Under the pieces are notes generated by a model that had not been told where the DNA came from, searched no databases, and saw only the letters and a program-made list of their open reading frames with translations. Shown here in pieces: positions 1 through 22,828 of a stretch of DNA of 22,875 nucleotides. The DNA lies in IMG/VR virus record IMGVR_UViG_3300020377_000036, positions 1 to 22,875 of that record; one strand, 5' to 3'. Each line of letters begins with the position of its first letter. Within the stretch, counting starts at the first letter, position 1. This DNA comes from a virus. The position numbers and the translations under genes were made by a program.

Positions 1-390
1 CTAATTCTATTTGTGTACTCACCAGTTAGATCTGATTCATCTTTAGTGATAACGTCAATACAGATCTTACCAACTTCACGCCAAGTATAGATTGACTGTA
101 GAAGTTCACCATTAACGTGCTTGAGAGCACCAGATCCTTCTAAGTATCCACGACCTGCAACGATAGTGTGGAAGTTACCACCTAACTTAAGGTCATTAAT
201 GATTGCAGGGATAATAAAGGAGTTAGTGTCACGAACACACTTGTCAGTACCTTGAGTAGATCCACCACCGTCACCTGGGATGACAAATGCAGGATATTTC
301 TCCTTCATACGTCCAACTGCTTCTTCTGCGATCCAGAAACGGTTCTTATCAATAATATCAGCACAATCTCTATAATCATCACGAGAAACA
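1..390 (-). repeat. Helical repeat unit C in the giant protein, cut by the window edge
   Basis: Residues from about 4578. The unit contains DKNRFWIAEEAVGRM (D at residue 4591), then KCVRDTNSF, LGGN, a GRGYLEG loop and HVNGELLQSIY. It matches units A and B in order and length, with the G-G-N and H-V-x-G positions kept. More copies may continue beyond the edge. Confidence 0.7.
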
Positions 391-3300
391 TCAATCTCCT
401 CTGTCATAATCTCTTCACGCCAGAGTTCTACACCGTCAGCGTTAGCAGATGAGATGATAGTCTGTTGATATGTTGCGTAGACTGCAGAGAGTTCCATTGG
501 GAACGGTGATTCACCATTGAAACCGAATGAGATGTCAAGTGCTTTGAAATCGTAAACAGTAGGGGGAGTAAACCCACTAGAGTAGCTGGCGGTTCCTTTT
601 CTGATAATAAGGTTGTCCATATTACCTGTGAAAGTCTCACCATTTGCCCAAGATGCACCGACAGTGATTGGAGAGTTAGGATAATCAGAAGCGTCAGTGT
701 AATCAGAACCAACGGGTTGACCGTTGACAAACATCTTAGTTACGTTAGATGCTCTAGAGATAGCAACGTGATACCACTGATTAGCAGTAGGAACTGCAGC
801 AGATCCAGTGATATGGTCATTTACGCCAATACCAAACTTGATTGATGTTCCTTGTAAGAAGATGCTACCTGCATTGCTACTTGAAGCAGTTCTGAAATCT
901 ATAATACGTTGTGTACCAGATACAGTTGTAGGATAGATCCAGAGTTCAACTGTGTAATCACCAGTTCCAAAGGCAAATGCTGCATTGGAATCGTGTCTAA
1001 GTCTAGAACTTGTACCACTAAATTCAAGTGATCCAGTGCCAGTTCCAGGGTTCAACTTATCAGTTGTAACGTTATTATATGTGATTGTTGAGTTTGTAAT
1101 GTACTCAGCAGGGTTGAATGCTCCAGTAACACCCTTTGTATAGACCCATTTGCTACCTGCATTGGTTCCAATGATCTCTGCAACAGCACCAGAGGAGACA
1201 CCCTTAAGAACTTGTCCGAAGTTGAAGAATCCACCAGATGATTTGTCCTTATAAGAATGCTTGATAGAACGGATTGTCTCACCCGCTTCAAAGGTGTATG
1301 CAGGTGCAATTCTAGGAACATTGCTGATAGACCACTGATAGGTAGCAGGATCTGCTCCAGTAGGATCTGATAGAGTATCAGTAATGATTTTGAAGAAGTT
1401 TGCAACAGCAGATGTCTGAGCAACACAAGCATTTTCATTAGGAATCGTAGTTCTACCTTGTGAGTAGTCTGCCTGAGGAGCAGTTGATGTAACTGCTGCT
1501 TGGAATGCTTCTCTAGTGCCTGGGGATGCAGTTGTACCAAGAGCATTGATGAGAATATCCATCAATGTTGTGATAGAAGCAGCAACTGCCTGACAAGTTG
1601 GACTTGCAGGGTCAGCAGTGATAGAAATGGTTACCTGATTCCAATCGTGTGATCCTGCCTTGGTAACAGCAATATTTCTCATAATATCGAGAGACATTGC
1701 CTTTGCCTTTGTAAAGGAGTTGACAATAGTGTCTCTATCACCAGATGTTACACCGTAGTGAAGGATTCTATCTGTTGCTTCCCAAATGAAATCGTTACCA
1801 CCGTGTGCAACGTTGTATGCAAGTGCTTCAACAACATCCACGATGTCAGAGAGGCAATGCTCATCTCCACCAGATACGTTATAACCTGGGTTTAGAGTCT
1901 TAGCATAGTGAAGTGACTCATACGCAATAAACCACTTGTTAGCAAGCAACAAGGTTCTAGCGTCACCGTGACTATTACTTACAACTTCATATTCAGGTGT
2001 AATAGTGAGATCCTTCCACTGAGACAGAGTTGTGTACTCAGTAGTGATGTCCACCATATTAATACACTTGTTAGCGAGATCTCTCGCTGCATTCATTGCA
2101 TATATTGTCTGAGCAACCTGTCCATCAACGTGATATACAGTATTGTTCTGAACATAGAAGTTTGCAGCATCCCAAACCTCAGAGTTACCATCGTGCTCAA
2201 GTTGCCAAGCAATTAGATTGAGCATATCAACGATGTCGTCCTCACAATTAACTTTACCTGTAGGAACAGTAAAGGAGGGGTAGAAATTCAACATCATTCC
2301 CACCGCTTCTTCAGCGATGAATCTGTCGTTCTTAACTAGTGCCTCTGCAGCGTTATTTGCACGGGTATCGTGTACAGTTCTAATAGAAGAGTTACCAAAG
2401 TAGATCTTCTTAAGTCTGATGTTAGTTCCAGGTGCAAAGTCATTACCAGTCAAACCATCATAACGAATCTCTTGGTTACGAACAGATTCGAAATCTAGGA
2501 AGTCTTGGTTATTAGGTGATTCAATATCATAGAGTTCAGTTGGGTTAATAACTGTATCTCCAATGTTATCAAGGATAACGTTAGGATATGTGATTGAAGG
2601 AACTCTCTGGAATACAAGAGCAAAGAAACTAGATGAAGGTGAAAGGTCAACAGTGTCAATAATCTGTTCTGAAACTGCATCCTGATAAGGAGCGATAGCA
2701 GAAACTGTTGCTGCAATCTTAGATCTTGCAGAATAGATTATATCGTTGAACTTGATCTCAAATTCACCAGTTTCATACTCAGCAGTACCAGATGTTCTAG
2801 AAACAACCAGTTCATTGTTGATATTACCATCATCAAGGTTGTTCTCTTCAATGATTGCAAACTTACCATCAAGGTTAGTAATTCTTTCACCTTGTTCGAA
2901 GATTGTCTTAGATGAAAGACCGCTTACACCGTTTGAAGCAATAGTTGAGTTGAAACCAGTAGCACTATTAAGAACTGCCTCTCCTGCTTGGAAAGTTCCC
3001 TCAATATTAATTACATCGATATAATCAGTACCAGAATCGACTACAGTAGCAGTTGCCTCAGAAACAAGACCTCTGACTCTGTTACCAGATAGCGGGAAGA
3101 TACCACCGATCAAATCAAAGGTGATACGAGTAATTAATAACTGAGCAAAGGTTACAGTTCTAAACTTAATTCTAGAAGGTGCCTTAGGTGGTTCAGAGAA
3201 CACAATAGAAGGACCTGATGTAGAGAATGAAGTTCCAGGTGACTGTGCAACACCATTGAGTAGCACAAACATCTGATCTTCAGTTGCAGTGATAGAACTA

Positions 3301-6300
3301 CCCTCAACATTCAGTGGGAACTGAGTTCTAACACCGTCAAAGTCATCAGAAATGTTATCGATCTTCTTAACAATAGAAGTAAGGATTTCCTCAGAGTTAG
3401 TCAGTCTCTTCTGTCTGAAGAGCACCTCAGTGTTGTTGAACTGAGTATAAATGGGTTGTGCGTTAGCAAATGATGTGATTTGGTTAATATTTGTGAACGC
3501 ATTGATATTAACCTCTTTGATTAGATCAGATACAACCTTTCTTCCAGAAATATCCTTACCACCAGTAATTGCTAGTTCACCGAAGAGGTTGAAACCAACA
3601 GGGTGGTTTGTTTCTAGAACAGGTTTTCTCCAAGTGTTAATAGGTGTTTCAGACTTAATAACGTAAGAGAAGTTCTGATAGAAGTAAGAGTCTTGTATTT
3701 TCTGAACAATTTCAGATGGTTTACCAACGTCATCAATGAACTGACCAGGGGTATTGGTAAGAGAGTCAATATTAAGAGTACCACGAGCGATTGAAAGGTT
3801 ATCAATCAAACCAGATGCACGGGAAACTTCACCAGTTACACGCTCACCTGCAGTCCAAACACCGTCATAGTTCTCAAGTTTAAGGATTCTAGGTCCGATC
3901 TGCCAACCTTCGTTAGTAGAAACATAACCAGTTGCAGATGCAAGTTCAAGTGATGAACCCTGATAAACAAGTTCACCCTCAAGGAATCTTGAAGTCTCAA
4001 CGATTGCAGTTGCTTGACCACCAAATACTTCGGTCAAGAGAATCTGTCTACCTTCACCCTGTGTCAAGAATGTAATGTAAGAACCAGATTCAGCGTCAAG
4101 TTTAGTCAGTGAGATACGAAGTTGGTCAGATTCAAGACCATTTGCCTCACCTGCGATAGCATAGTAAGTCTGAGATGATGACAAACTAACCAAACCTGCA
4201 GAACTTGGTTTTGGAAGGATACCAACTGTAGATCCAAGATCTTCTGCTCTCAACTGGATCTCAGCACCAGTTGTAATACCGTGTGGGAAGTTAAACTGTA
4301 GATAACCTAAGTCAATGTTAACAACGTAGTTGAACTCAGACTTAAGTGTAACTGTAGGTTCAGAACTGTATCCTGCACCAGGATCCTTAATAATAACTTC
4401 AGAAAGTCTATTGTTCTTAATAACTGCTTCTGCCTGAGCACCTGTACCGCCACCACCTTCGATAACAACAGCAGGTGTTGATGTATAACCAGAACCAGGG
4501 TCTGTAATCTTGATTTCTGCAAGAATAGCGGTATTAAACAACTGAAGGTTCACGGGGAAAGTGATTTCAGGTCTCAAAGTATAGTCGTGAGAATAACCGA
4601 AACCAAATTCGTTGTTCTTAAGTTTCTTGATACGTCCGATTGACTTACCTTGTAAGAATACAGATGCACCAGATCCCTCAGAAGGAATCACAACTTCTAG
4701 TTGTGCACCTGAACCTGCAAGAAGAGGACCAAGAATTCCAGGGATAGCGTCTACATCAATCGATGCAAAGGTGTAACCCTTACCTGCAGAGGTTAAAACA
4801 ACATCAGTAATGACACCAGTGAAGTCTCCGTCATCCTGAACAGTGATATTACAGGTTGCACCTTCACCATCTCCTGCAATAGGAACGTTATAGTACACAC
4901 CGTTGACATATTCAGTACCACCGTTGTTAACACGGACCTTTTCAATCTCTCTATTAGATGCAATATCAGTAACAATAGGTAATTTCTGATAGAATCCACC
5001 TGGGTTTACCAGTTTAATGCTTGCAATAGGTCCAATCGCCTTGATTGAGGTTGTAGAGTAGAAGGAACGTGGGTTTCCAAACTCATTATTACCAACAGGA
5101 GCGATAGTTTTCTCAGGTTCAACAAGAAGTGGGAAGTCAAACTCCAATCCATCGGAAGAAACCTTCGAAATTGTAAATGTACCTTGGTAAGGAGACTCAA
5201 TAACGTCAATAAATGACCCTTCACCAACAGGAGAGTTGTCTGCTGTGGTTCTAGATGGGTCAAAGTAGTATGAAATGTTAGTAACATCATCATTGATGAC
5301 GAATTTAACCAATGGAGTTGGTGAATCATCATCAGTAAATCCAGGTGTACCCTCTCTAATGATGTTAATGAATGGATATTCAAGTTTATACTGGTTATCT
5401 TTAGAGAATGATAGGTAGTATCCAAGGTTAGAAGAATCGTCAAGGTCAAAGATATACTGATGTCCTCTAACAAATAGGAACTTAGGATGCTTAGCAAAGA
5501 TATTAACGTTAGAAACAGAAGAACCTGAACCTGAGAATGTTGGATCCTGAACAGCAGTGCTTCTTAATTTGTATGTAAAGTCTCTAGAAGTGAATACTTC
5601 TTCCACAAAGAATGAACCGTTGTATTCATTAGTGGAGAATCCTTCAGTAAAGATGATGTCAGTTGCTGCAAAGTTATGTCTGGTATTAGCAGAGCAGTAA
5701 ACAAGATCAGTATTTGTTAGTCCCTGTGAAGGAATAACGTCTTTATTGAGTTTTGCCTGAAGATTGAACTGCTTAACACCAACAAGACCACCAAATGTTG
5801 CGATCTTACCAGTTGCATCAACATCAAATGTCAAGTTAACAGCATCAGCATCAATGGTGTCACCCTTAATGAAGTCTGAATCATCATAGATCTGTTGGAT
5901 TCTAATAGTATAGTCAGAAGCATTGAAAGGTTTCCAAGATGCAAACTGTGCAAGAGTACCTGAACCGTGTACGCTATTCGCCAAATCTACTGAGAAGGTA
6001 CCTGCAACGCTTGTAAATGCCCAGTTGATGTTACCATCAGAGACAGTACCAGATGTATGATTAGGAGCAATAGGACCTGCAGTTGCAGCAGTACCAGATG
6101 TATAGATCTTACCGTTACTATAAACAATATCACCAACATCATAGTTCTGGTTTTGTTCCCAGACAGGAGTTGTAGTTAGAACTGTAAACTCTTTATCTGT
6201 CTCGTTTACATCACCTGCGGTAGATTTAAGAAGTTTAGAGGTATCAAACGAACCAATAATCTTACCGATCTTACAAGAACTAGTTCCAACCTCAACAACA

Positions 6301-9300
6301 GTACCATATGCTGATACAACATCGTTACCACCAATAGTAGAATACTGCTGAAGAACAGTTCCTTTTGTAAAGGTTGCAGGTTGATTGAATGTAATTGTCT
6401 TAACAAGGTCAATACTAGTGTATTTTGCGTCTCTAATATAGAACTTAGGAATAACCTTAGTAGTTAAGAGTAGTTTCTTACCACCTTGTGTAGGAATAGT
6501 AGCAGTTCTACTTGCCCACGCCTCATCAGTAGATGTTACGGTATAAACTCCAGGGACGTGAGTTGATACAACATCAGAGTAATCAAGAATCTGAATACCT
6601 GCAGGACCGATCAACCAAGGGTTAACAGATACAGGTTGGGTATTAAACGTATAATTGCTTGTGGCGGAAGTTGTAAGAGTATGTCCAGTCTCTACATCGT
6701 TTAGAGTAAATGTTCCAAGTTTTGTCTTATCCTTGTCAATCTTATAGATGAATGCTTCAGTAACTTTGTTTGTACCAGTTACCAGTCCTGCAGTGAATGC
6801 ATCTGTGTACTTAGCAGAAGGTGTAACCACAAAGTTGTCAACCCAACCAATCCAGTTGTTCTGAGAACTTGGAGTTGAGATAGGACCAAGAGTTACCTGC
6901 ATCATATTGACATCAACACTGGCACTAGTTACTGAATGTGCCTCTACACCGTTGACGTATATACGATAGATGTAAGAACCAACACCAGGGCGTTCCTTAG
7001 AAATAGCAACGTGAACCCACGCCTCTGAGTTAAATCCAGTCCAGAATGCTGTACCAGTTGAATATGATGTAGTTCCATTTAGATCAAGGAAGATCTTACC
7101 AAAATTAGCACTACCTGAAGTACCATCAACACCAACCTTGACTTCTTGTGCTAACTGAGAGTAAATACCGAAGAATTCAGGTTTAGATGCTTGTGCAGCA
7201 TATTGAGTAGCACCAAGAGCAAACCAACCTTCCATTGTCCACTCAACACTAACATCAGCAGTTGTGCTGTATTGGAGGAGCAATGAGTTAGGTGCATCAA
7301 GTTTTACTGAAGAAGCACCGTTATAAAACTTGGTGTTATCAATAACAGCGTTACCAGTTGCATACCACTGCTTGTTAGTACCAGTTTTTAGAGTGTCATT
7401 GTATGTTTCATCAAAGAGGTTGTCTGCAGTGTTCCAGTTGAAGATTGCAAGTTGCTGTGCCTCAACCTTATTACCTGCAACCAAAGTATCACCAGAGTTG
7501 TCATTTGCAACACAAGTTGGATGATAACCAATACCAGAATCTTCTTTTGCTTCAGCAGCAGAAAGAATGTTGCCACTGTTCCAAGAAATTTTTGCAGTAA
7601 CTGATTGAACATCGTTGAAATCTCTCTCAACAAGTGCACTGACGTCAATATTACCAAATACATCAAAAGCAACACCTGCATTCTTACAAGATGTGTAATT
7701 TCCTGTAGGAACGTACATCTTAGACACAGATACTGCTGTATAGTCCTGATTATCAAACTTACAATAAAGAACACCGTAATTCTTACCGTTTGTGTCAATG
7801 GCAGTTGCAGTTACATAAACTGAACCGTATTCATCAATAGTAAATGTAGGATCAGCAAACTGATAAGCAGCAGATTCAATTTGTTTAGACCATACAACCT
7901 CGATAGTTGCAGTATCATAGTATGTTTCACCAAGAATGATGTTAGCAGCACCTGCAGGGTCAGAGATACCAGTGAAGAGGAATGTATCGTCAGTTCTCCA
8001 TTCGACTTGATGTAGATGCTCACTAGCAGCAGCAGAAGCGATCTTACGCTTCTCCATAATAGATCCGTCAATATCCATCAACGCAACCCACATATCGTCA
8101 GGAGCAGTTGCGTTAGAGTCTGTATAACCTGCAATCATTACACGACCATCTTGGTCAAGTCTAATGCTAGAAGCATAGTCTCTTCTAGTAGAACCAGAGA
8201 TGCCTGCAATATCACGCTGCCACTGAATGATACCATCAGGGTTGTTAGCGTTGTTAAATCCTGACTGATACTTAGCAACAACAATATCTGGGTTGTGAGT
8301 AAGATTACCTACATTAGGAACTGTCTCACCGATAACGTAGATGTTATGAGGATTACTGTTCTCAATATGAAGTGATTTCCACTGAAGTGACTTATCAGCA
8401 GTCTGAGGAACAGTAGGAATAAGTGTACGCTGCCAAAGCAATCTACCATCACTATTGAACTTAGCAAGAATACCTGCTACATCACCATCTGCAATCTCAG
8501 TCTTACCACAAACATAGAAGGTACGATCATCAGCAACTTTAATGTCATTAATAGTAAGAGTAGAACCTGCTTCTTTCAAGAATGATAAGAAGTAAGTTGC
8601 TTTCTTGAATCTCTGAGGATGAGAAACACGAATCTGAGGAGGATTGTTTTCGTCGTATCCTGAACCAGAGTTGATAATATTAACGTTCTCTACTCTACCA
8701 CCTTCATCTCTAACGATGTCGATGTTAAAATCTTGTCCACTGTTAGTAATAACCTCGTAAGTAGGAGGAATGTCCTCAGAGTATCCTAAACCAGACTGAT
8801 CAACAGTAACTCTTTCAACACCAGATATGACTTTTACCTTGAAAGTCTTGTTAGTGTCATCAAGAATAGGTGTACTGGTAACAATAATCTGATCATTTAC
8901 ACGGAGTTCGTGCTCAGTTGCAGTGGTAATCTTACCAACTGGTTGATCACCAGTCATATAAGAAGAGTAACCTGCAATGTCTAGACCCTTAACTGCCTCA
9001 ACTTTTGCAGATGCACCAAAACCATCAGTTCCTTCATTATCAAAGAACAGTTTATCATTAACCTTATAGGATATACCTGGGTTCTCAACCACGAATCCGT
9101 CAACTTTAGCGTCTTCGAATTTAGTCGTAGTCTCAATATCAATGTCAACAACAGATCTTGTAGAAACTTTAGGGTAGTAATCAAATAATTGTAGTACGGG
9201 TTCTTCAGTGATCTGAATAGGTGTGGTATCTTCTAGGTTATTAATAAGACCGTCTCTGTTAGTATCTTCGATTTCAAAGATAAGATCCTCACCAAGTTCA

Positions 9301-12300
9301 GTAACAAGAGTGTCAGTTGCTTGGTTAGGTGTACGATCAATATCAATATCCACATCCTCGTAAGGATCACGGAATCTAACCACGTTAGATGGGATATTTG
9401 TCTGTACAGCACTCTGAGAGAAGTTCCACTCATCAGGTGAAGAGTACAGTTGAGGACCACAAATGTAAGGGAATACAGGATTACCTGCATCAGATGCGTC
9501 GATTGATACGAAATATGCGTAAACACCTTCAGGGAAGTCAGGAGTCTTACAGAAACGACCATTATATTGGTCTAGATCACCCTCTTGGAAGACATATTCG
9601 AAGTCATCAATGAATGATCCCGCAATGTAATCAGTAAGAAGAGGACCATCTGCTCTAACTGGTTCTGGGTTAGTTGCAGCGTCGAAGATAAGTGCGGGTT
9701 TGATTCTGTAAGATGAACGAATCCTTCTGACACCAGATGATTGGTTAGTAGCATCAATGTAACCATAAGGTCCGTAGATGGGGTTACCATCAAACGCCCA
9801 ACCCAAAATAGGTGAGTGTTGGTATCCAGTTGTAAGTTCCTGTAACTGTTGAGTTGCCTGATTCTTGAATACGTTATCACCAAGAACGTATCTTAATTGC
9901 TTAGGATCAGAAAGGTGTGCGTACTCACCACCATACTGAGTGTTATAACCTGCAAACACGTAACCACGTGCTGTATCAAAGTTCTGTCCTAGTTCATCTT
10001 GAAGGTTTCTAGTCCACTCAAATACACTTGCAGTGAACTCTGCCAATTCACCAACCGCTTCCAAGCGGATAGTTGTATTACCAGTAGTGTAACCGATACC
10101 TCTGTTTACAACAGTAACACCGATAACCTTACCTCTATCCTCACCAACATTACCGATAGTTGCTCTTGCAATAGCACCGTAACCATCTCCGTTGATAACA
10201 ATCTCAGGAGCGGTTGTATATCCTCTTCCTGCTGCAATGATAGCGATAGAAACGATTCTACCGTTAATGATGATAGGTTGTGCAACAGCACCCTCACCAG
10301 AGTTTAGTTTGATCTCAGGAGATGCCGTATATGCTGCTCCTGCAGAATCTACAGTTACAGACTGAATTGGACCACGTACCTGTGCAGTAGCAGCACAACC
10401 AGTACCACCTCCACCAGATATAGAAACGTCAGGTTGTGAAGTGTAACCCTGACCTGGGGTTTCGACGAGAATCTTGGAAACTACGCCGTTAGTAATAACA
10501 GCAGTAGCAGTTGCACCAAATCCGCCACCACCCACAATGGAAACAAGAGGAGAACTAGTATAACCAGTACCGCCAGAAGAAACTTGGATTTCACTTAGAG
10601 CACCATTAACAACAACACTTGCTTTAGCACCAGTACCACCGCCACCATTGATTTCAATGACAGGAGGGTTTGCTGCGTCATATCCTTTACCTGGGTCATC
10701 AATACTGATTCCAGTCACTCCACCAAACTTAATCTTGTTCTGTGACTTGTAAGACCAAGTTGATACACCATTGACCCAAGAACCAATAGGACCGAATGTT
10801 GTGTCTGTACGCTTAGAGATCGTATTGATAGTTCTAGGAATACGGATCAACTTACGTTGGTTTCCAGGGAGAAGCGCAGATCCTAGGAAAGGACCAACTT
10901 CATAGTTAGGAATACCTGAAGATGCAACATATGCATAATCATCATTGAAGAATGTATTCTGTACGTTAGTAGTAAAGTCTCTGATAGCAACGCTGATACC
11001 TTCTTCAGGAGACTTACCTTTGTTCAGGTCAACAGAAAGAAGAATGTTACCCTGTGGTTCGTTTGGAGCAGGTGCAGGAATGTTATATTCAAACTGTGTG
11101 TTATTGATACGGGATGTGACCAAGAAGGTTCCGTTGAACACAGTTGGGTTCGCACCGTAGATGGTAACAGTGTCACCAACCAACAGACCGTGATTATTAG
11201 AGCAGGTAACAGTTGCAGTCTGATTATTGAGACCACCAGGGATGATCTGAGTAATATTGATTAGTTTCTTAACGTTGTACAACCAAGAGGTAATTCTCTT
11301 ATCGTTAGTTGTAGAACCAAGTGATGCAACGTTTAGTTTATCTCCAGGGAGGTAATATGAACCGTTATCAGATAGAACTGTAGATTCTGCATCAGCAATA
11401 CCAAGAACACGCAACTTACACTCAGTATCAGTGCCACGGTTGACATAAACGAAGATGTCAGAGTGAACAATAGTACCTGCGTCCCAATCTTCGACTACAC
11501 CGTTCTTAGAACGAGTACATTCGATGAACTGGTTCAGTGTTTTCTCTTTGTACTGTACAACTTCATCGTCATTGATGCGGATTGTACCATTTCTCTCTGG
11601 CCAACCAATCGTAGAGTCAACTGTAATAATAGACTCTGTAGTAGAAAGTTCCTCAACCAGTGTGGTCTTATATGGAATTGTAAATGCACCCTGCAGTGTT
11701 TCTTCAGAAATTGCAAGTTCATACACCGTACCAACACCAGTATTGATCGCAATAACGTTCTCAACCAGTGCAGATGCACCTCTAACGTTAACATCAACGT
11801 CGTCAATGTACTGAATCAACTGTGAGTCGAGTAGATTCTCAGGAGATCCTTCTAAAAGTTCTGCTCTTAGAACCGTATCTACGTTCCAAGTTGCAGCAGA
11901 TGGTTTGATAACCTCATCCTTAGGATAAGAAACATCGACATTTTCGGAGTAAAGTATCTTAAAGAGGTACTGTGTAGAGATCTTCGTACCTTTAGATGCG
12001 TAGAAATCCGAAATAGTCTTGATAATCTGCGGAGCGTTGACTTTTGTGTAGTCAATTTCCGCATTAGGAAGATATTGATTTACAAATCTTCTGTATAATT
12101 CTTTAGCAAAAAGATTATCCAGATTATGAATAACTGCTCCCTTAGCGTGAGAACTCTGTACCAGACTGGATTCTTTGCTGTAAATTTGATGACCTTTCTG
12201 GTCAAATGATGTAACACCAGAAACTCCGCGCTTTACTCCAGTAAATGCTGAAGGTTCGTATCCTGATCCGTCACTGTGGATAGTGAAACCAGTAATCTCT

Positions 12301-14120
12301 CCAAAACCAACGTCACAAGACGCCTCAGGTACAGGAGGAGCAGCGATAAAGACCTTAGGAGGTTCAGTATCAGAGTATCCGTTACCGAAACTAGTGATAT
12401 TGATGTCAGTGATCTCACCGTTGAAGATGGTAGCAACTGCTGTTGCACCCTCACCACCAATAGGTTGACCATTAGTGTCCTTTCTATTATCAACGATATA
12501 CACAGAAGGTGCATCTGTGTATCCCTTACCACCAGTCAGTAGTTCAATATTAGTAACTCTACCACCAGTACAAGACACATCAAGGATCTGTGCACCAACA
12601 GGGTCAACAATTCTTGCCCTGATAGCACCTTCATATCCTTGACCGTTAGAAATGATGTCAATACGTTCAACCCTACCGTCATCATCAAGAACTGCAATAG
12701 CAGTAGCATTGATAGCATTATCTCCAGTAGGAGGATCCATATACACCAAAGGTGGAGATGAATACCCTGAACCCCTGTCTATGACTGAGATTGATCCTGT
12801 TTTGATTGATCCTCCTTCGACGACAGGATCGGTGATAGTAGCACCACCAGGATTAACAAACTTAATTGAAGGAATGCGGTCATATCCAGATCCAGACGAT
12901 GTAACACGCAGTTCCGAGACTCCTTCGATTTCATCAGATACGATTGCTGTAATTTGTGCTCTACTGCCTTCTGAATCAGCAGGATCATCCACAACTACGA
13001 TAGGAGGATTGTTAGATGAATATCCTTGACCTGGGAACAAGAGTTGAGTATTCTTGATGCCATTTACGAGTGCTTCCGCAGTTGCACCCTCACCAGGACC
13101 TTTATTTGACTGAATAGTGATTCTAGGAGCAAAACTTACTCTATAACCTTGACCACCATTCTTTACAAGGATGTCACTAACAGATCCACCTTCGATTTGG
13201 GAGACTGCTGCAGCACCTGAACCAAATTCAGGAGCGATCAGTTCGACAGATCTTACGTCGATTGTAGCATTTTGTGATACATCCTGCTTGAATATGAGTT
13301 TATCGTTAAAAACTGTGAAGTCTTCGAACGGTCTTTTCTCAACTCTGTTAACAACAACGATTGAAGAAACTGTTGAAAGAGGAGTGTATGGTTGAGTATT
13401 TAATTTTAGATGAAATTCTTTTGCATCAGCATCAACTGTGATGGTGTCCAGAGAACGCACTGGAACGCTTGTGTAACCGATAAGGTAACGAATGGTATTG
13501 ATAGCACCTGTCAACGCCCCTGTAGTCGCTGCAGGAGGGTTTACAAAGCGTATCCTGTCACCCTCAACAAAGTAATCCCTGTCAGGGAACATAAAATCGC
13601 CATTTACAATCACCAAAAGATGATTGGAAGACTGAGGTGTAACTGGTCTACCGAGTAATCTTAAGTTAAATTCTGTCTTTGAACTATCAAACTGATTATT
13701 GATTGGTTCGAATTCTTGTATCTTTCTGTCAAATTCTTGTTTGTTGACCCCAGGAGTGAAAACGATGTCAGGGGAATGTGTTACAGACTCATAATATAAA
13801 ACTTCATCATCAATCTTTAGCGTACCATCCTTCTCTAAGAAGTAGTTTACATTCTCAGCAACGATCTTATTCTGTGTAGGATTGACCGCCTCCAACACAG
13901 CAGACTCTGATGACAAGAAATTAGGATCAAATTCACCTGATCCGATGTCGATATACGATAAGATGCTGTTTAGAACATCGTATGGGCGACCCGATTTCTC
14001 TTGTGACTTGTAATACTCTGTCAGCAAGTTGACGAACTGGTCGTGATCTTCCTTGATAAACGCAGGAATCTGACTGTTCAGTCTCTGGGAGACCTGAATT
14101 GCTGTGTTATGTGCAACCAT
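1..14120 (-). CDS. Giant modular virion structural protein, gp7 position, 3' end outside window
   Basis: One open frame starts with ATG at 14120 and is still open at the left edge, giving at least 4706 residues; for comparison T4 gp7 has 1032. The start lies 18 nt after the gp6 stop, with no Shine-Dalgarno but an A-rich leader ending TAAAAAATGG. Module order (approximate residues): N-terminal domain of the IPAFIKEDHDQFVNLLTEYY type (19-90), seen in phage baseplate/tail proteins; NG-V/P-G-x-x-F beta module (166-195); GxGY units (325-625); segment with FYASKGT and YPKDEV (700-750); a DSTIGWP...INDDEVVQY module (830-857); GxGY units (1140-1347); YHYH-like domain (1419-1559); dockerin-like Ca motif (1619-1631); GxGY units (1685-1825); propeller-like stretch (1840-2220); LamG (2244-2445); cupredoxin-like segment (2876-2960); GxGY units (3035-3255); second NG-V module (3615-3650); helical repeats (3918-4147, 4578 onward) around a second LamG (4363-4520). 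A structural, baseplate-linked role is inferred from gp6 adjacency and the modules. No catalytic site is evident. Confidence 0.93.
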   Translation of the reverse strand, partial: MVAHNTAIQVSQRLNSQIPAFIKEDHDQFVNLLTEYYKSQEKSGRPYDVLNSILSYIDIGSGEFDPNFLSSESAVLEAVNPTQNKIVAENVNYFLEKDGTLKIDDEVLYYESVTHSPDIVFTPGVNKQEFDRKIQEFEPINNQFDSSKTEFNLRLLGRPVTPQSSNHLLVIVNGDFMFPDRDYFVEGDRIRFVNPPAATTGALTGAINTIRYLIGYTSVPVRSLDTITVDADAKEFHLKLNTQPYTPLSTVSSIVVVNRVEKRPFEDFTVFNDKLIFKQDVSQNATIDVRSVELIAPEFGSGAAAVSQIEGGSVSDILVKNGGQGYRVSFAPRITIQSNKGPGEGATAEALVNGIKNTQLLFPGQGYSSNNPPIVVVDDPADSEGSRAQITAIVSDEIEGVSELRVTSSGSGYDRIPSIKFVNPGGATITDPVVEGGSIKTGSISVIDRGSGYSSPPLVYMDPPTGDNAINATAIAVLDDDGRVERIDIISNGQGYEGAIRARIVDPVGAQILDVSCTGGRVTNIELLTGGKGYTDAPSVYIVDNRKDTNGQPIGGEGATAVATIFNGEITDINITSFGNGYSDTEPPKVFIAAPPVPEASCDVGFGEITGFTIHSDGSGYEPSAFTGVKRGVSGVTSFDQKGHQIYSKESSLVQSSHAKGAVIHNLDNLFAKELYRRFVNQYLPNAEIDYTKVNAPQIIKTISDFYASKGTKISTQYLFKILYSENVDVSYPKDEVIKPSAATWNVDTVLRAELLEGSPENLLDSQLIQYIDDVDVNVRGASALVENVIAINTGVGTVYELAISEETLQGAFTIPYKTTLVEELSTTESIITVDSTIGWPERNGTIRINDDEVVQYKEKTLNQFIECTRSKNGVVEDWDAGTIVHSDIFVYVNRGTDTECKLRVLGIADAESTVLSDNGSYYLPGDKLNVASLGSTTNDKRITSWLYNVKKLINITQIIPGGLNNQTATVTCSNNHGLLVGDTVTIYGANPTVFNGTFLVTSRINNTQFEYNIPAPAPNEPQGNILLSVDLNKGKSPEEGISVAIRDFTTNVQNTFFNDDYAYVASSGIPNYEVGPFLGSALLPGNQRKLIRIPRTINTISKRTDTTFGPIGSWVNGVSTWSYKSQNKIKFGGVTGISIDDPGKGYDAANPPVIEINGGGGTGAKASVVVNGALSEIQVSSGGTGYTSSPLVSIVGGGGFGATATAVITNGVVSKILVETPGQGYTSQPDVSISGGGGTGCAATAQVRGPIQSVTVDSAGAAYTASPEIKLNSGEGAVAQPIIINGRIVSIAIIAAGRGYTTAPEIVINGDGYGAIARATIGNVGEDRGKVIGVTVVNRGIGYTTGNTTIRLEAVGELAEFTASVFEWTRNLQDELGQNFDTARGYVFAGYNTQYGGEYAHLSDPKQLRYVLGDNVFKNQATQQLQELTTGYQHSPILGWAFDGNPIYGPYGYIDATNQSSGVRRIRSSYRIKPALIFDAATNPEPVRADGPLLTDYIAGSFIDDFEYVFQEGDLDQYNGRFCKTPDFPEGVYAYFVSIDASDAGNPVFPYICGPQLYSSPDEWNFSQSAVQTNIPSNVVRFRDPYEDVDIDIDRTPNQATDTLVTELGEDLIFEIEDTNRDGLINNLEDTTPIQITEEPVLQLFDYYPKVSTRSVVDIDIETTTKFEDAKVDGFVVENPGISYKVNDKLFFDNEGTDGFGASAKVEAVKGLDIAGYSSYMTGDQPVGKITTATEHELRVNDQIIVTSTPILDDTNKTFKVKVISGVERVTVDQSGLGYSEDIPPTYEVITNSGQDFNIDIVRDEGGRVENVNIINSGSGYDENNPPQIRVSHPQRFKKATYFLSFLKEAGSTLTINDIKVADDRTFYVCGKTEIADGDVAGILAKFNSDGRLLWQRTLIPTVPQTADKSLQWKSLHIENSNPHNIYVIGETVPNVGNLTHNPDIVVAKYQSGFNNANNPDGIIQWQRDIAGISGSTRRDYASSIRLDQDGRVMIAGYTDSNATAPDDMWVALMDIDGSIMEKRKIASAAASEHLHQVEWRTDDTFLFTGISDPAGAANIILGETYYDTATIEVVWSKQIESAAYQFADPTFTIDEYGSVYVTATAIDTNGKNYGVLYCKFDNQDYTAVSVSKMYVPTGNYTSCKNAGVAFDVFGNIDVSALVERDFNDVQSVTAKISWNSGNILSAAEAKEDSGIGYHPTCVANDNSGDTLVAGNKVEAQQLAIFNWNTADNLFDETYNDTLKTGTNKQWYATGNAVIDNTKFYNGASSVKLDAPNSLLLQYSTTADVSVEWTMEGWFALGATQYAAQASKPEFFGIYSQLAQEVKVGVDGTSGSANFGKIFLDLNGTTSYSTGTAFWTGFNSEAWVHVAISKERPGVGSYIYRIYVNGVEAHSVTSASVDVNMMQVTLGPISTPSSQNNWIGWVDNFVVTPSAKYTDAFTAGLVTGTNKVTEAFIYKIDKDKTKLGTFTLNDVETGHTLTTSATSNYTFNTQPVSVNPWLIGPAGIQILDYSDVVSTHVPGVYTVTSTDEAWASRTATIPTQGGKKLLLTTKVIPKFYIRDAKYTSIDLVKTITFNQPATFTKGTVLQQYSTIGGNDVVSAYGTVVEVGTSSCKIGKIIGSFDTSKLLKSTAGDVNETDKEFTVLTTTPVWEQNQNYDVGDIVYSNGKIYTSGTAATAGPIAPNHTSGTVSDGNINWAFTSVAGTFSVDLANSVHGSGTLAQFASWKPFNASDYTIRIQQIYDDSDFIKGDTIDADAVNLTFDVDATGKIATFGGLVGVKQFNLQAKLNKDVIPSQGLTNTDLVYCSANTRHNFAATDIIFTEGFSTNEYNGSFFVEEVFTSRDFTYKLRSTAVQDPTFSGSGSSVSNVNIFAKHPKFLFVRGHQYIFDLDDSSNLGYYLSFSKDNQYKLEYPFINIIREGTPGFTDDDSPTPLVKFVINDDVTNISYYFDPSRTTADNSPVGEGSFIDVIESPYQGTFTISKVSSDGLEFDFPLLVEPEKTIAPVGNNEFGNPRSFYSTTSIKAIGPIASIKLVNPGGFYQKLPIVTDIASNREIEKVRVNNGGTEYVNGVYYNVPIAGDGEGATCNITVQDDGDFTGVITDVVLTSAGKGYTFASIDVDAIPGILGPLLAGSGAQLEVVIPSEGSGASVFLQGKSIGRIKKLKNNEFGFGYSHDYTLRPEITFPVNLQLFNTAILAEIKITDPGSGYTSTPAVVIEGGGGTGAQAEAVIKNNRLSEVIIKDPGAGYSSEPTVTLKSEFNYVVNIDLGYLQFNFPHGITTGAEIQLRAEDLGSTVGILPKPSSAGLVSLSSSQTYYAIAGEANGLESDQLRISLTKLDAESGSYITFLTQGEGRQILLTEVFGGQATAIVETSRFLEGELVYQGSSLELASATGYVSTNEGWQIGPRILKLENYDGVWTAGERVTGEVSRASGLIDNLSIARGTLNIDSLTNTPGQFIDDVGKPSEIVQKIQDSYFYQNFSYVIKSETPINTWRKPVLETNHPVGFNLFGELAITGGKDISGRKVVSDLIKEVNINAFTNINQITSFANAQPIYTQFNNTEVLFRQKRLTNSEEILTSIVKKIDNISDDFDGVRTQFPLNVEGSSITATEDQMFVLLNGVAQSPGTSFSTSGPSIVFSEPPKAPSRIKFRTVTFAQLLITRITFDLIGGIFPLSGNRVRGLVSEATATVVDSGTDYIDVINIEGTFQAGEAVLNSATGFNSTIASNGVSGLSSKTIFEQGERITNLDGKFAIIEENNLDDGNINNELVVSRTSGTAEYETGEFEIKFNDIIYSARSKIAATVSAIAPYQDAVSEQIIDTVDLSPSSSFFALVFQRVPSITYPNVILDNIGDTVINPTELYDIESPNNQDFLDFESVRNQEIRYDGLTGNDFAPGTNIRLKKIYFGNSSIRTVHDTRANNAAEALVKNDRFIAEEAVGMMLNFYPSFTVPTGKVNCEDDIVDMLNLIAWQLEHDGNSEVWDAANFYVQNNTVYHVDGQVAQTIYAMNAARDLANKCINMVDITTEYTTLSQWKDLTITPEYEVVSNSHGDARTLLLANKWFIAYESLHYAKTLNPGYNVSGGDEHCLSDIVDVVEALAYNVAHGGNDFIWEATDRILHYGVTSGDRDTIVNSFTKAKAMSLDIMRNIAVTKAGSHDWNQVTISITADPASPTCQAVAASITTLMDILINALGTTASPGTREAFQAAVTSTAPQADYSQGRTTIPNENACVAQTSAVANFFKIITDTLSDPTGADPATYQWSISNVPRIAPAYTFEAGETIRSIKHSYKDKSSGGFFNFGQVLKGVSSGAVAEIIGTNAGSKWVYTKGVTGAFNPAEYITNSTITYNNVTTDKLNPGTGTGSLEFSGTSSRLRHDSNAAFAFGTGDYTVELWIYPTTVSGTQRIIDFRTASSSNAGSIFLQGTSIKFGIGVNDHITGSAAVPTANQWYHVAISRASNVTKMFVNGQPVGSDYTDASDYPNSPITVGASWANGETFTGNMDNLIIRKGTASYSSGFTPPTVYDFKALDISFGFNGESPFPMELSAVYATYQQTIISSANADGVELWREEIMTEEIDVSRDDYRDCADIIDKNRFWIAEEAVGRMKEKYPAFVIPGDGGGSTQGTDKCVRDTNSFIIPAIINDLKLGGNFHTIVAGRGYLEGSGALKHVNGELLQSIYTWREVGKICIDVITKDESDLTGEYTNRI
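561..1034 (-). other. LamG/concanavalin A-like domain 2 in the giant protein
   Basis: Residues about 4363-4520 contain SLEFSG, DYTVELWIYPTT (W at residue 4394), QWYHVAISR, MFVNGQPV and FTGNMDNLIIRKG. These are the full set of LamG_3 landmarks and are closer to consensus than domain 1. The domain sits between helical repeat units B and C. Sugar recognition on the host surface is a plausible inferred role. Confidence 0.85.
1680..2000 (-). repeat. Helical repeat unit B in the giant protein
   Basis: Residues about 4042-4147. The unit contains ANKWFIAYESLHYA (N at residue 4061), then HCLSDIVDVVEALAYN, HGGN and W-E-A-T. It lies 131 residues after unit A with the same arrangement: N-K-x-F-I-A, C-x-x-D, G-G-N, then W-x-A. 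Helical content is inferred from the residue pattern. Confidence 0.75.
2050..2372 (-). repeat. Helical repeat unit A in the giant protein
   Basis: Residues about 3918-4024. The unit begins with a helix containing KNDRFIAEEAVG (K at residue 3930) and continues to a C-x-x-D-I-V-D helix, DGN, a W-D-A helix and HVDGQ. The same order recurs in units B and C, so these are diverged copies of one alpha-helical module of roughly 130 residues. Confidence 0.75.
4360..5015 (-). repeat. GxGY protein repeat array 4 (about 6 units)
   Basis: Units lie near 4995 (GGFY, degenerate), 4905 (GTEY, degenerate), 4775 (GKGY), 4589 (GFGY), 4486 (GSGY) and 4368 (GAGY). The last two are closest to consensus, as in SGYTSTPAVVIEGGGG. 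Spacing is less regular than in arrays 1 and 2. Confidence 0.75.
5230..5497 (-). other. Cupredoxin-like segment in the giant protein
   Basis: Residues about 2876-2960 contain FLFVRGHQYIFDLDDSSN, then a Y-x-L-S-F-S strand, then REGTPG, and end in an ISYYFDP strand. This resembles a beta-sandwich seen in marine phage structural proteins, where 'V-R-G-x-x-Y-x-F-D-x-S-D-S-S-N-x-G-H' is followed by a strand ending in YYC-x-x-H. The histidine and cysteine expected of a metal site are missing, so any role is probably structural. The family assignment is from memory and tentative. Confidence 0.45.
6786..7391 (-). other. LamG/concanavalin A-like domain 1 in the giant protein
   Basis: Residues about 2244-2445 show the LamG_3 pattern: 'G-x-S-S-V-K-L-D', then WTMEGWF, then EAWVHVAIS, a strand ending in IYVNGVE, and finally WIGWVDNFVVT. 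These correspond to the 'F-T-[VI]-E-x-W-[IVF]', 'W-x-H-[VI]-A' and 'Y-x-[DN]-x-[VF]' landmarks of sugar-binding jelly-roll domains. Carbohydrate binding is inferred from the family. Confidence 0.8.
7460..8603 (-). other. Beta-propeller-like (SBBP-type) region in the giant protein
   Basis: Residues about 1840-2220 contain repeated 'D-x-x-G-x-[IVM]-x-[IV]-x-G-x-[ST]' blades. Examples are DDRTFYVCGKTE, NPHNIYVIGET, DGRVMIAGYTD, TFLFTGISD, YGSVYVTATA, FGNIDVSALV and GDTLVAGN. W-Q-R and W-x-K strands alternate with them (LLWQRT, IIQWQRD, VVWSKQ). The pattern resembles SBBP-repeat or PQQ-like propellers. About seven blades can be counted by eye. A binding role is likely but no ligand can be named. 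Confidence 0.6.
8645..9075 (-). repeat. GxGY protein repeat array 3 (3 units)
   Basis: Three units lie near 9067 (GISY, degenerate), 8784 (GLGY) and 8657 (GSGY). They sit between the calcium-loop segment and the propeller-like region. The last two have the standard unit shape, ending in P-P-x-x-x-V or P-P-Q-I-R-V. Confidence 0.75.
9230..9266 (-). other. Dockerin-like calcium-binding loop in the giant protein
   Basis: Residues 1619-1631 read DTNRDGLINNLED. This matches the D-x-N-x-D-G-x-I-N pattern of dockerin type I and EF-hand-like calcium loops, with a terminal acidic residue at position 13. The stretch before it is unusually acidic (DVDIDIDRTP, LGEDLIFEIED). Only one copy is visible, so it is not a full dockerin pair. 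Calcium binding is inferred from the motif. Confidence 0.6.
9445..9865 (-). other. YHYH-like domain within the giant protein
   Basis: The in-frame translation contains HSPILGWAFDGNPIYGPYGY from residue 1435, followed by an FPEGVYAYFV segment and FPYICGP. This matches my recollection of the core of the YHYH domain, in which 'GHSPI-GYA-DG-PIYGPYG' is the hallmark. The literal YHYH tetrapeptide is not present and the position is represented by GYQH. The function of this domain in phage is not established. In this context it is probably a folded decoration on a fibre. Confidence 0.7.
10085..10700 (-). repeat. GxGY protein repeat array 2 (6 units)
   Basis: Six more units lie in the giant gene near 10680 (GKGY), 10560 (GTGY), 10442 (GQGY), 10328 (GAAY, degenerate), 10218 (GRGY) and 10090 (GIGY), about 38 residues apart. 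Several are followed by runs such as GGGGTG or GGGGFGA, consistent with glycine-rich turns between beta-strands. This array ends shortly before the YHYH-like domain. Confidence 0.85.
12255..13150 (-). repeat. GxGY protein repeat array 1 (8 units)
   Basis: Eight units carrying G-x-G-Y (GQGY, GQGY, GSGY, GSGY, GQGY, GKGY, GNGY, GSGY) lie in the giant gene, with tyrosine codons near 13143, 13021, 12884, 12763, 12632, 12520, 12376 and 12259. Spacing is about 37-48 residues. Each unit follows the pattern 'I-x-x-x-G-x-G-Y-x-x-x-P-x-V-x-I' and is followed by an alternating hydrophobic stretch, which suggests short beta-hairpins stacked along a fibre. The repeat is at the protein level, and the DNA copies are diverged. 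Confidence 0.85.
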
Positions 14121-16226: not shown

Positions 16227-16634
16227 TTACGCCTTTTCTAATAGAAAGTCAACAGTTTGAACAAGTGTCTGACCGACAATAGTGTAATCAATTTCCACTG
16301 CTAGTTCGTTTCTGTCTTCTATTACAGTTCGAACGTCATTAACAATAATACGAGGTTCTAACCGACGAAGAGTGTTCTTAATCTCGTCAGTTAGACCCTC
16401 AATCATAAAGACATCGAAATTCTCAAACAGCATTCCCCTTACACGTGATCCTGTATTGGGTTGAAAAGGTCTTTCACCAAACTGCGTCAGCAGCAGGTTT
16501 TTCATTGCTTGTTTGATTGCGTTTTCATTCTTCACAACAGAAAAGTCTTCAGTATTGGGATTTGCTTTCATCCCAATACCAAAATCTCTAAACTGTCTGC
16601 TTAGATTCTTGTCTGCTTTGAACCTGTACGCCAT
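16227..16634 (-). CDS. gp25: Baseplate wedge subunit gp25 (lysozyme-like fold)
   Basis: A 135-residue protein, the usual size for gp25 (132 in T4) and homologous to TssE of type VI secretion. It joins the wedge core and starts sheath assembly. The segment LTQFGERPFQPNTGSRV (49-65) and the RRLEPRI motif (90-96) are diagnostic, and EPR is the conserved core of this family. Despite the historical 'lysozyme' label, the motif is structural rather than catalytic. The start overlaps the end of the preceding small gene by 47 nt and has only a GAAGG directly against the ATG, which suggests coupling or use of the late-like motif at 16661. gp6 follows at once, as in T4-like wedge operons. Confidence 0.96.
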   Translation of the reverse strand: MAYRFKADKNLSRQFRDFGIGMKANPNTEDFSVVKNENAIKQAMKNLLLTQFGERPFQPNTGSRVRGMLFENFDVFMIEGLTDEIKNTLRRLEPRIIVNDVRTVIEDRNELAVEIDYTIVGQTLVQTVDFLLEKA

Positions 16635-17146: not shown

Positions 17147-17689
17147 TTATCCCGCAAGGACATTAGGTGATCCGTATGCAATCTTAGACATACACGGATA
17201 CCCTATGCTGACGGGCGGTAGACTGCCTTTACCTAAGTTATCACCCAATCTACCTATGGGTATCTTAAACGCTCTCACAGACTGGTAGAACCCAGTATCA
17301 AGAACCCTAGGATGACCACCTGTAATATCTTCAGCAGTCAGTAGGGAGCAAATTGTTGGAGTAGGAATGATACAGGTTGCCTTACCACAAGGACACAAAT
17401 AGTTAATAATGTTAGTTGTTGGTGACGAATGAGGAGTGAACACATCACCTTTGATCATTATAGGTATTTTATTGACCACAACCATCGCTCTGAAGGGATT
17501 TAGACCAGTCAAAGAGACTAAAGGCGTGGGTGGCCACAGACAAGTTTTGTTTTTCATCACAATTCCTAACCTAATCGGTGGTGTTCCACACGATTGTGTT
17601 GAGTGTATTGTTGACGGAATGGGTATTCCGTGTCCTGTACAGGGCAAACCGTTATGATTTGCTACTGGTTTTGCTAATCCTAGTGCCAT
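17147..17689 (-). CDS. PAAR-like baseplate spike-tip protein
   Basis: A 180-residue protein rich in Gly, Pro, Cys and His. VVNKIPIMIKGDVFTPHSSP (71-90) and the C-terminal YGSPNVLAG fit the PAAR pattern ('V-N-G-x-P-x-x-x-G-D-x-x-x-x-H-S-S-P' and 'G-S-P-N-V'). The N-terminus has a second set, with C17, H20 and C34. PAAR proteins such as T4 gp5.4 sharpen the membrane-piercing tip of contractile tails and bind a metal ion through His and Cys. Candidate ligands include H20, H87, C99, C101 and C106. It is longer than T4 gp5.4 (about 97 residues) and carries eight cysteines. The ATG overlaps the stop of the 1143-residue gene as TAATG, which implies coupling and perhaps a shared place at the baseplate centre. 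Confidence 0.65.
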   Translation of the reverse strand: MALGLAKPVANHNGLPCTGHGIPIPSTIHSTQSCGTPPIRLGIVMKNKTCLWPPTPLVSLTGLNPFRAMVVVNKIPIMIKGDVFTPHSSPTTNIINYLCPCGKATCIIPTPTICSLLTAEDITGGHPRVLDTGFYQSVRAFKIPIGRLGDNLGKGSLPPVSIGYPCMSKIAYGSPNVLAG

Positions 17690-22327: not shown

Positions 22328-22828
22328 CTAAAAGTAATTTAAGTTTAGCACAAATCTAAATTTGCTGTTTGTTGTTGATGTACCTGCGTGTGGAATGTTA
22401 ACAGGAAAGAAGACTATTCGATTCGCCTTAGATTCCACTCTAGTGCCATCCTTAAAGAATGTATAACCATCGTTATCATTTAGATAGTACACAGCGGTTG
22501 TAGCGCCTTTGAAGACGTTCTCACCACCATCAGGATGATACTCCCCACAGTCAGTATGATAATCGTATTCGATAAGTTCATCAGTATGATGATTCAAATT
22601 TGCCTTGACACGTATCAGTGCTCTGGGTTGGATTCTATTGATAAGAGGTAAGATCAGATCCCACTGTGGACTCTGTGGTCTTCCTCCTTCATAGAACTTG
22701 TGAACCATCTGCCAGTTATATATTTCCTTTGCCTGTAAGTCTGGGTCTATCATCCTTGCTACGTGCATCACCTTTGCGTGATTCAAATACCAAGGAAAAC
22801 ACTGATCACCACAGATCTCATCCCTCAT
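22328..22828 (-). CDS. 2-oxoglutarate/Fe(II)-dependent oxygenase
   Basis: From the ATG at 22828 this is a 166-residue protein. It has the double-stranded beta-helix ligands of the family: the H-x-D pair in DYHTD (H91, D93), the distal histidine in PVNIPHAG (H147), and R158 in KFRFVLNLNY, expected to bind 2-oxoglutarate. TTAVYYLNDNDGYTFFKDG and NRIVFFPVNIPH are the usual core strands. Cyanophages carry many such genes; substrates are mostly unknown, with protein or nucleotide hydroxylation as possibilities. I chose this start because GAGGAG lies 9 nt upstream. A TTG at 22858 would add ten residues (LLLRKEEFLK) that resemble the normal family N-terminus, and an in-frame TAG at 22865-22867 stops any further extension. 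The true start is therefore uncertain. Confidence 0.85.
   Translation of the reverse strand: MRDEICGDQCFPWYLNHAKVMHVARMIDPDLQAKEIYNWQMVHKFYEGGRPQSPQWDLILPLINRIQPRALIRVKANLNHHTDELIEYDYHTDCGEYHPDGGENVFKGATTAVYYLNDNDGYTFFKDGTRVESKANRIVFFPVNIPHAGTSTTNSKFRFVLNLNYF

Follow-up and report, generated by a model that had tools for sequence, protein, structure and literature searches.

What does a reading frame encode that stays open across more than 14 kb of a virus contig and then runs off its edge, and is it really one gene? The frame lies on the minus strand of IMG/VR virus record IMGVR_UViG_3300020377_000036, whose complete 22,875 bases make up the stretch analyzed here (hereafter, the window). A preliminary description, made from the letters of the sequence alone, proposed a single phage structural gene of at least 4706 codons at the map position of T4 gp7 and took its size to be exceptional. 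We conclude that the frame very probably represents the first two thirds of a ∼6920-residue, ∼748-kDa baseplate protein, an enlarged wedge protein at the gp7 position that carries modules homologous to phycobiliproteins. The source is probably a T4-like marine cyanophage. Coordinates of the relevant features are collected in Table 1.

Integrity and length of the reading frame

The frame begins with ATG and remains free of stops through 4706 codons. For DNA of this composition, ∼287 stops would be expected in that many codons (log10 of the probability of finding none is about −129), and the five other frames across the same interval contain 128 to 631 stops each. In 15 of 16 bins (300 codons per bin), GC is lower at the third codon position than at the other two, and all 13 landmarks that had been named as sharing one codon phase are in phase with the ATG.

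It had been suggested that the contig be extended to find the stop, and this could be done using a second contig, IMGVR_UViG_3300020416_000001 (171,756 bases), which was matched by 300-residue queries from both ends of the frame (best segments at 100%, with full query coverage). Its gene, read from two overlapping stretches that are identical over 7682 bases, runs for 6920 codons to a stop (42311–63073), so that 4706 codons was a true lower bound. There is no sign of the frameshift or assembly join that would have undermined a single gene of >14 kb: the second contig has the same gene with one amino-acid difference in 4706 residues, and an ungapped comparison over the entire window finds 41 of 22,875 bases different. 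The full-length protein has 6920 residues (747.7 kDa), and its gene, at ∼20.8 kb, makes up 12.1% of the second contig.

Table 1. Features of the window and of the sequences compared with it (residues refer to the 6920-residue protein; coordinates are those of the window unless another record is named)
Feature	Residues	Coordinates	Strand	Basis or remark
Giant wedge/arm gene, 5′ 4706 of 6920 codons		3..14120	−	ORF, second contig, phrog_701; 3′ end outside window
N-terminal wedge segment	8–66	13923..14099	−	In phiM12 (8–66) and HTVC008M (8–37)
∼65-residue repeated domain, two copies	134–198, 3584–3647	13527–13721, 3180–3371		Self-comparison; third copy at 6562–6639 (second contig)
Glycine-rich GxGY repeats	300–622	12255..13223	−	Self-comparison
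Core wedge segment	672–815	11676..12107	−	HTVC008M; phiM12 at 674–746
Further GxGY blocks in window		10086–10739 and 4341–5105	−	Self-comparison
Segment 1137–1307	1137–1307	10200..10712	−	HTVC008M match inside GxGY repeat block
YHYH domain	1373–1542	9495..10004	−	PF14240, E=2.6e-30
Last core segment	3405–3550	3471..3908	−	HTVC008M; phiM12 at 3473–3530
Module 1	3915–4041	1998..2378	−	Cys3959 codon 2244–2246; self-comparison, profiles, AlphaFold2
Module 2	4045–4173	1602..1988	−	Cys4089 codon 1854–1856
LamG/concanavalin-like domain	4382–4506	603..977	−	PF13385, E=1.1e-22
Module 3	4577–4703	12..392	−	Cys4628 codon 237–239 (C-V-R-D); PF00502 match here
gp6-type baseplate wedge gene, directly upstream of giant		14139..16223	−	PF21379, phrog_219
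gp25-type baseplate wedge gene		16227..16634	−	PF04965, phrog_261
Bilin reductase gene, phage near-identical to window's		IMGVR_UViG_3300020416_000001 106515–107072		PF05996, E=4e-46
∼1,010-aa protein after gp6, HTVC008M		KC465899 33435–36485		Core segments in common with giant
∼1,010-aa protein after gp6, phiM12		KF381361 60408–63431		Core segments in common with giant

A family of giant proteins downstream from gp6

Residues 8–3765 of the protein match positions 4–3741 of the 6136 in phrog_701 (“virion structural protein”; PHROGs, E=0). The remainder of the gene, including the C-terminal part, also matches this family, and a match over most of the protein length places it among the giant cyanophage virion proteins. 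In the window as in its relatives the gene order is gp25, gp6, giant, which puts the gene at the gp7 position.

Homologues are annotated as single CDSs of 3048–8573 aa in all 16 cyanophage records examined, namely S-PM2 (3048), S-CAM4 (3494), ACG-2014e (3495), Sf-CH1b (3640), Sf-CH8 (4878), syn9 (6076, annotated “putative fiber”), S-SSM5 (6171), S-SM1 (6180), S-RIM2 (6378, “similar to gp7”), S-RIM8 (6395), P-RSM4 (6603), S-SZBM1 (6619), S-WAM1 (6737), ACG-2014d (6817), P-TIM40 (7351), and P-RSM6 (8573). A baseplate wedge gene lies immediately upstream in 15 of the 16 annotation tables and is named gp6 in 10; the sixteenth table (S-RIM2) displayed the giant itself without its neighbors. Comparison of length and position across T4-like cyanophages, which had been proposed as a check, finds the gene immediately behind a baseplate wedge gene in every table that displays its neighbors. 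The exceptional size did not hold up. Because these 16 records hold similar single CDSs, the giant gene is ordinary for its group, and it is shorter than those of P-TIM40 and P-RSM6; the giant gene itself is an already known trait of T4-like cyanophages.

The family extends beyond cyanophages. The N-terminal 300 residues matched 356 phage records, and a wedge query (residues 1–1000) matched 475, including Sinorhizobium, Methylophilales, Pelagibacter, and other marine phages; the four top isolates for the latter query were S-SZBM1, S-WAM1, P-RSM6, and P-TIM40. Overall, homologues that follow gp6 span from ∼1,010 residues (one Pelagibacter and one Sinorhizobium phage, the shortest being 1007) to the 8573 of P-RSM6.

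Evidence from virions comes from two relatives. The 6619-aa protein of S-SZBM1 was identified in CsCl-purified virions from 71 peptides at 13.5% coverage (Table 1 of PMC9146016), and T4-GC969 of S-SM1, which is the 6180-aa gene, is named among virion-detected proteins (PMC3037559). From these relatives we infer that the giant of the window is likewise a virion protein. With the 16 cyanophage records, the gp25 and gp6 genes upstream, and the relative in S-SZBM1 virions, the proposal that a single giant structural gene occupies the map position of T4 gp7 is well borne out.

Other genes in the window can be mentioned here. On the minus strand, 17689–21120 encodes a 1143-aa protein (phrog_22792) with a weaker baseplate-wedge match; four relatives have genes of 1231–1430 aa at a similar place, likened to it by position only. 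A gene for a PAAR-motif protein (phrog_281) is at 17147–17689 (−). At 22328–22858 (−) is a gene of 2OG-Fe(II) oxygenase type (PF13640, 28.0 bits, cut-off 27), whose best PHROG, phrog_274, is labelled DNA endonuclease V and disagrees with that assignment.

A proposed gp7-type scaffold with inserts

Six full-length giants were combined into a profile, which was set against the post-gp6 proteins of Pelagibacter phage HTVC008M (1016 aa) and Sinorhizobium phage phiM12 (1007 aa). In-order matches were found at giant residues 8–37, 672–815, 1137–1307, and 3405–3550 for HTVC008M and at 8–66, 674–746, and 3473–3530 for phiM12. One of these (1137–1307) may be a mere repeat-type match, because it lies inside a GxGY repeat block. 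Out-of-order matches were found at 6199–6274 (HTVC008M) and, weakly, at 1778–1834 and 1174–1242 (phiM12, mutually unordered). By computation, then, pieces of a ∼1,000-residue scaffold present in these two related phages of non-cyanobacterial hosts match in order across the first ∼3550 residues, with large inserts between them. We read the giant, on its sequence, as a gp7-type scaffold with large inserts in the first 3550 residues plus a C-terminal extension of ∼3,300 residues.

No direct link to T4 gp7 was recovered: the N-terminal profile had no match in the T4 genome, and none came from the PDB. Comparison by hhalign of the N-terminus with that of the neighboring gp6 detected no similarity. 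The predicted structure of the N-terminal part is poor (pLDDT 59.2), with matches for residues ∼123–238 only (Z up to 7.1), and the best 50 structural matches of this low-confidence model include neither gp7 nor gp6. The ∼1,010-aa protein of phiM12 is annotated as similar to PHA02579, which we take to be T4 gene 7. According to one published account, cyanomyophages and pelagimyophages have no T4 gp7, and VrlC appears to take its place (PMC7029224). The existence of ∼1,010-aa proteins directly after gp6 argues for a gp7 equivalent and against that statement as it is worded there.

Anatomy of the giant protein

When compared with S-SZBM1, S-WAM1, P-RSM6, and P-TIM40, the first ∼3,730–4,110 residues align unbroken at 50–53% identity and the last ∼1,180–1,560 residues at 39–43%. 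The middle (about 3820–5740) aligns piecemeal, and the longer relatives have additional and shuffled copies of its parts. The C-terminal ∼3,300 residues comprise a variable, length-changing middle and a conserved end. Five blocks of GxGY repeats were identified by self-comparison (residues 300–622, 1128–1345, 1765–1835, 3006–3260, and 6673–6772). The first copy of a ∼65-residue domain that occurs three times weakly resembles domains of phage fibres, adaptors, and necks, with Z reaching 7.1; among them are the T7 gp17 N-terminus (Z 5–6) and a T5 portal-complex protein (7.1). A C-terminal stretch is Ig-like (PF13927, E=0.017, under its cut-off).

The middle contains a ∼125-residue unit that self-comparison finds six times, at 3916–4041, 4046–4166, 4578–4702, 4737–4860, 4918–5031, and 5065–5193, of which the window holds the first three. 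A degenerate seventh module is at 5878–5982. The variable middle carries the LamG domain and six modules, each with a putative bilin-attachment Cys and an Asp three residues on, with the seventh just beyond. Just past the six modules, at residues ∼5203–5605, are tandem repeats of ∼80 residues (FTC..D.N..HSYPR motif), which are among the parts that align in several copies with the longer relatives.

Modules related to phycobiliproteins

These modules were absent from the preliminary reading of the frame, and a single-sequence search of the PDB with the whole window protein gave nothing at E≤0.01; in PDB searches the relationship becomes visible only with a profile of many copies. Against Pfam, residues 3800–5400 match PF00502 (Phycobilisome) with 33.9 bits (cut-off 22.2), and the window's own piece alone reaches 20.3 bits, under the cut-off. 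A first alignment of modules brought together 46 copies, taken from this phage, from contigs close to it, and from six isolates. It has one invariant column (the Cys) and six near-invariant ones (Asn24, Ile28, Asp55, Gly71, Asn72, and Tyr82). Searched against the PDB, its profile matched 147 distinct sequences at E≤10, the best being phycocyanin alpha (E=2.2e-8), in whose alignment the module Cys and Asp fall on the Cys and Asp of C-x-R-D. Among the best 60 of the 147, 59 are named as phycobiliproteins or phycobilisome parts and one as a “bacterial fluorescent protein.”

A second alignment (A2; 81 rows) drew on the window and IMG/VR loci only, with rows from GenBank isolates omitted. Its profile matched 132 PDB sequences (best E=1.9e-6), and the best 60 consisted of 55 phycobiliproteins and 5 fluorescent proteins. 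Of the 90 permitted copies A2 omits 10, and no fewer than 9 of these lack the Cys, so that the A2 searches and the structure model lean to Cys-type modules. A third comparison, by hhalign, was to 67 phycocyanin-type ORFs (156 before removal of near-duplicates) from 80 cyanobacterial loci, chosen by a length of 155–185 and C-x-R-D at residues 70–95, so that they carry the motif by choice. The module alignment matched this set with a probability of 96.5% (E=1.3e-8 for one comparison, 130 columns), and the Cys and Asp residues of the two sides coincide; none of 11 scrambled controls (one reversed and ten column-shuffled) exceeded 0.2%.

Single copies are less telling. PF00502 was found in 19 of the 46, at best with 9.5e-5, and any other family in no more than two. 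At E≤1, 12 of 12 module-bearing phage records had a PF00502 match (above cut-off in six), as did 4 of 14 control genomes (above cut-off in 1 of 14); three of these four are not cyanobacteria.

An AlphaFold2 model of the module (pLDDT 87.4, pTM 0.81) has the globin-like helical fold of the PF00502 family. The best 50 PDB rows from Foldseek were 49 phycobiliproteins and one bacterial fluorescent protein at probabilities of 0.94–1.00, with weak E-values (best 0.043). VIA-align gave the same 49 and one among its best 50 rows, with Z up to 12.7 over 121 residues (rmsd 4.2) and low identity (9–21% over aligned residues); values of Z below ∼13 can reflect a common helical-bundle arrangement. Given the weak Foldseek E-values and a Z under ∼13, the case for homology rests on sequence and fold jointly. 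The first ∼18–35 residues of the phycobiliprotein chain are unmatched: alignments begin at chain residue 18–45 by structure, and at 36–40 for most alpha chains by sequence; the modelled sequence included seven residues ahead of the module. Among predicted viral structures there were eight matches at E≤0.001, the named ones being structural, tail, or LamG-type proteins of Synechococcus phages. Taken together, profiles and predicted structure indicate that the modules are almost certainly homologous to phycobiliproteins.

Distribution of the modules and their putative bilin-attachment site

With module 1 as a tblastn query, 309 phage records were matched, all named Synechococcus, Prochlorococcus, or cyanophage, and none of the best 60 annotations among them names a phycobilisome protein. 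A search of cellular genomes, which reaches only close relatives, confirmed none for module 1. The module profile matches 13 times in S-PM2 and is also matched in 11 of 12 further cyanophage records, P-SSM2 being the one without; it has no match in HTVC008M, phiM12, or T4. The location varies. In S-CAM4, ACG-2014e, and Sf-CH1b, modules are in the gene at the gp7 position and also in other ORFs of 3,040–4,093 codons; in Sf-CH8, they are confined to an 836-codon ORF outside the gp7-position giant; and in S-PM2, the gp7-position gene has none and all of them sit in two further large ORFs, of which one bears the annotation short tail fiber protein. Since they are spread across different genes, the modules are a building block that recurs in cyanophage tail-type proteins and is not tied to the wedge protein. 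As an aside, within the module-carrying “short tail fiber protein” CDS of S-PM2 (NC_006820.1, 165928–177267), RefSeq puts fourteen tRNA genes in a 2-kb stretch, and the placement of these features looks wrong or shifted.

CXRD is described as the bilin site (PMC10151467). To count its residues, 442 module copies were collected from fetched loci, of which 301 are unique after removal of duplicates; copies starting after model position 8, ending >35 positions early, or containing X had been dropped beforehand. Cys and Asp are both at the model positions in 255 of the 301, Cys only in one, Asp only in six, and neither in 39. The residue at Cys+2 is variable, and only 109 of the 301 have Arg or Lys there together with Asp at +3. 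In the giant itself, C-x-x-D is present in six of seven modules and C-x-R-D in two of seven. The motif-less copies (40 of 45 were inspected) belong to a small number of kinds, chiefly one that is C-terminal and degenerate and another marked by “APT..”. C-x-x-[DE] is kept in 19 of 26 copies in ACG-2014e, S-CAM4, Sf-CH1b, and Sf-CH8, and in 25 of 33 when syn9 and S-RIM2 are included, both counts being limited to matches that span the Cys column (model 40–52). Module copies are related, so retention counts are not independent events. Cys and Asp thus behave jointly, as the residues of a ligand site should if the site is retained or lost as a whole, although this pattern falls short of proof.

Bilin genes in the phages

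A bilin reductase (PF05996) was detected in 5 of 23 records, namely the contig of this phage, a close relative, P-RSM6 (two genes), P-TIM40, and P-SSM2; 12 of the 23 are contigs and possibly fragments. Among 17 records, CpeT-family genes occur in 14 and heme oxygenase in two, in neither case in the window's own phage. CpeS was found in 0 of 17, that phage included, and a CpeS-type lyase was rejected as a partner of the modules. Co-occurrence of modules with the reductase is likewise not supported: most of the module records searched yielded no reductase, and P-SSM2 has reductase and heme oxygenase yet no module. If the modules bind bilins, most would need a supply from the host. Cyanophages are known to carry phycobilin lyase-family and bilin genes (PMC10665884), and the benefit of bilin genes to phages of Prochlorococcus, which has no standard phycobilisomes, is described as unclear (PMC2984593).

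What the modules may do

On the arrangement proposed here, the N-terminal part of the protein would build the wedge beside gp6, and the C-terminal part may project from the baseplate as an arm bearing binding domains. S-SZBM1 reportedly has no long tail fibre (PMC9146016, section 3.4), and the same paper relays this from others for S-WAM1, P-RSM6, and P-TIM40. As these are the four top-matching isolates, the arm may replace such fibres.

Two readings of the modules on the arm deserve most weight. Tentatively, we favor the one in which bilins, furnished by enzymes of the host or the phage, are covalently attached to the Cys-type modules and turn them into biliprotein units of the virion. The main alternative, almost as likely, is that the modules descended from bilin-binding globins but are now colorless structural or adhesive spacers, with Cys and Asp kept for folding or contacts. 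That modules and bilin reductase genes do not track is what colorless spacers would lead one to expect; so too are the persistence of several paralogous positions after loss of Cys and Asp, the variable residue at Cys+2, and the spacer-like look of arrays that differ in copy number. What spacers do not readily explain is the joint retention or loss of the two residues (only 7 of the 301 copies have just one of them) and the survival of the motif in most copies of the isolates counted above (19/26 and 25/33).

The other explanations are weaker. The modules could act as mimics during infection, binding to phycobilisome parts of the host, to its bilin lyases, or to bilins and so sequestering or redirecting them, an idea that draws on their homology to host antenna proteins, their restriction to cyanophage records, and the lyase-family and bilin genes mentioned above (PMC10665884); it is improbable, given that the modules sit in a protein whose relative occurs in virions and are also found in phages of Prochlorococcus, a host without phycobilisomes (PMC2984593). 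It is more improbable still that the region is made as separate proteins, from internal starts or by processing, with no giant polypeptide in the virion. The 13.5% peptide coverage of the S-SZBM1 homologue is too low to reveal cleavage, but the frame is intact in the second contig and five isolates, and no in-phase internal start lies behind AGGAGG, AGGAG, GGAGG, or AAGGA (a weak argument, because the gene's own start also has none of these). Least credible of all is that the resemblance to phycobiliproteins arose by chance, or that helices arranged around a conserved Cys have converged on it. The 9–21% identity, the lack of any Foldseek E <0.001, and the modest Pfam matches of single copies would fit such an explanation; against it stand three profile tests at E about 1e-8 to 2e-6, best-listed matches that are nearly all phycobiliproteins, scrambled controls that fail, and a motif that aligns on the bilin Cys and Asp.

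If the reading with attached bilins is correct, the consequences can be spelled out. A T4 particle contains roughly six copies of gp7. Six copies or so of a protein with six Cys-type modules would amount to tens of covalently bound bilins per particle. The modules would then be a direct acceptor for bilins produced by cyanophage genes and might give pigment a role in the particle itself (e.g., in photoprotection, in the sensing of light or redox state, or as a trigger at the host surface). The fuller proposal, that cyanophage virions are biliproteins whose arm modules receive bilins made with host or phage bilin reductases, we consider rather doubtful. Even so, the modules could help explain the pigment-making genes of cyanophages, and the purpose of their bilin genes becomes testable. 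Phycobiliprotein-fold modules in phage structural proteins appear to be undescribed in open-licence PMC papers. They represent the reuse of an antenna-protein fold within a phage structural protein and assign a fold to a previously unexplained part of large marine virion proteins.

Comparison with known systems

The giant resembles T4 gp7 by position; searches of the T4 genome and the PDB gave no sequence match. The likeness to the ∼1,010-aa proteins of HTVC008M and phiM12 goes further, as they also lie directly after gp6 and share several segments in the same order, but they are about seven times shorter, and the module profile found no phycobiliprotein-like module in either genome. Closest are the members of the phrog_701 family (“baseplate wedge initiator,” T4-GC 969/643) in S-SZBM1, S-WAM1, P-RSM6, and P-TIM40, which have the same position after gp6 and the same kind of module and differ from the 6920-aa protein in length and in the module order of the middle part.

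For the modules themselves, one point of reference is the bilin biosynthesis-associated globins (BBAGs), which extend the family of bilin-binding globins beyond the antenna; a number of them have CXRD, and they are described as binding bilins without lyases (PMC10151467). These are bacterial proteins in gene clusters, and they are likened to the phage modules here by description. The phycobiliproteins proper (PF00502; phycocyanin alpha closest in the PDB) resemble the modules in sequence profile, in predicted fold, and in the two bilin-site residues, Cys and Asp. The phage modules are unlike them in that the first ∼18–35 residues stay unmatched in the alignments, in their tandem fusion within a structural protein, and in the frequent replacement of the Arg of CXRD.
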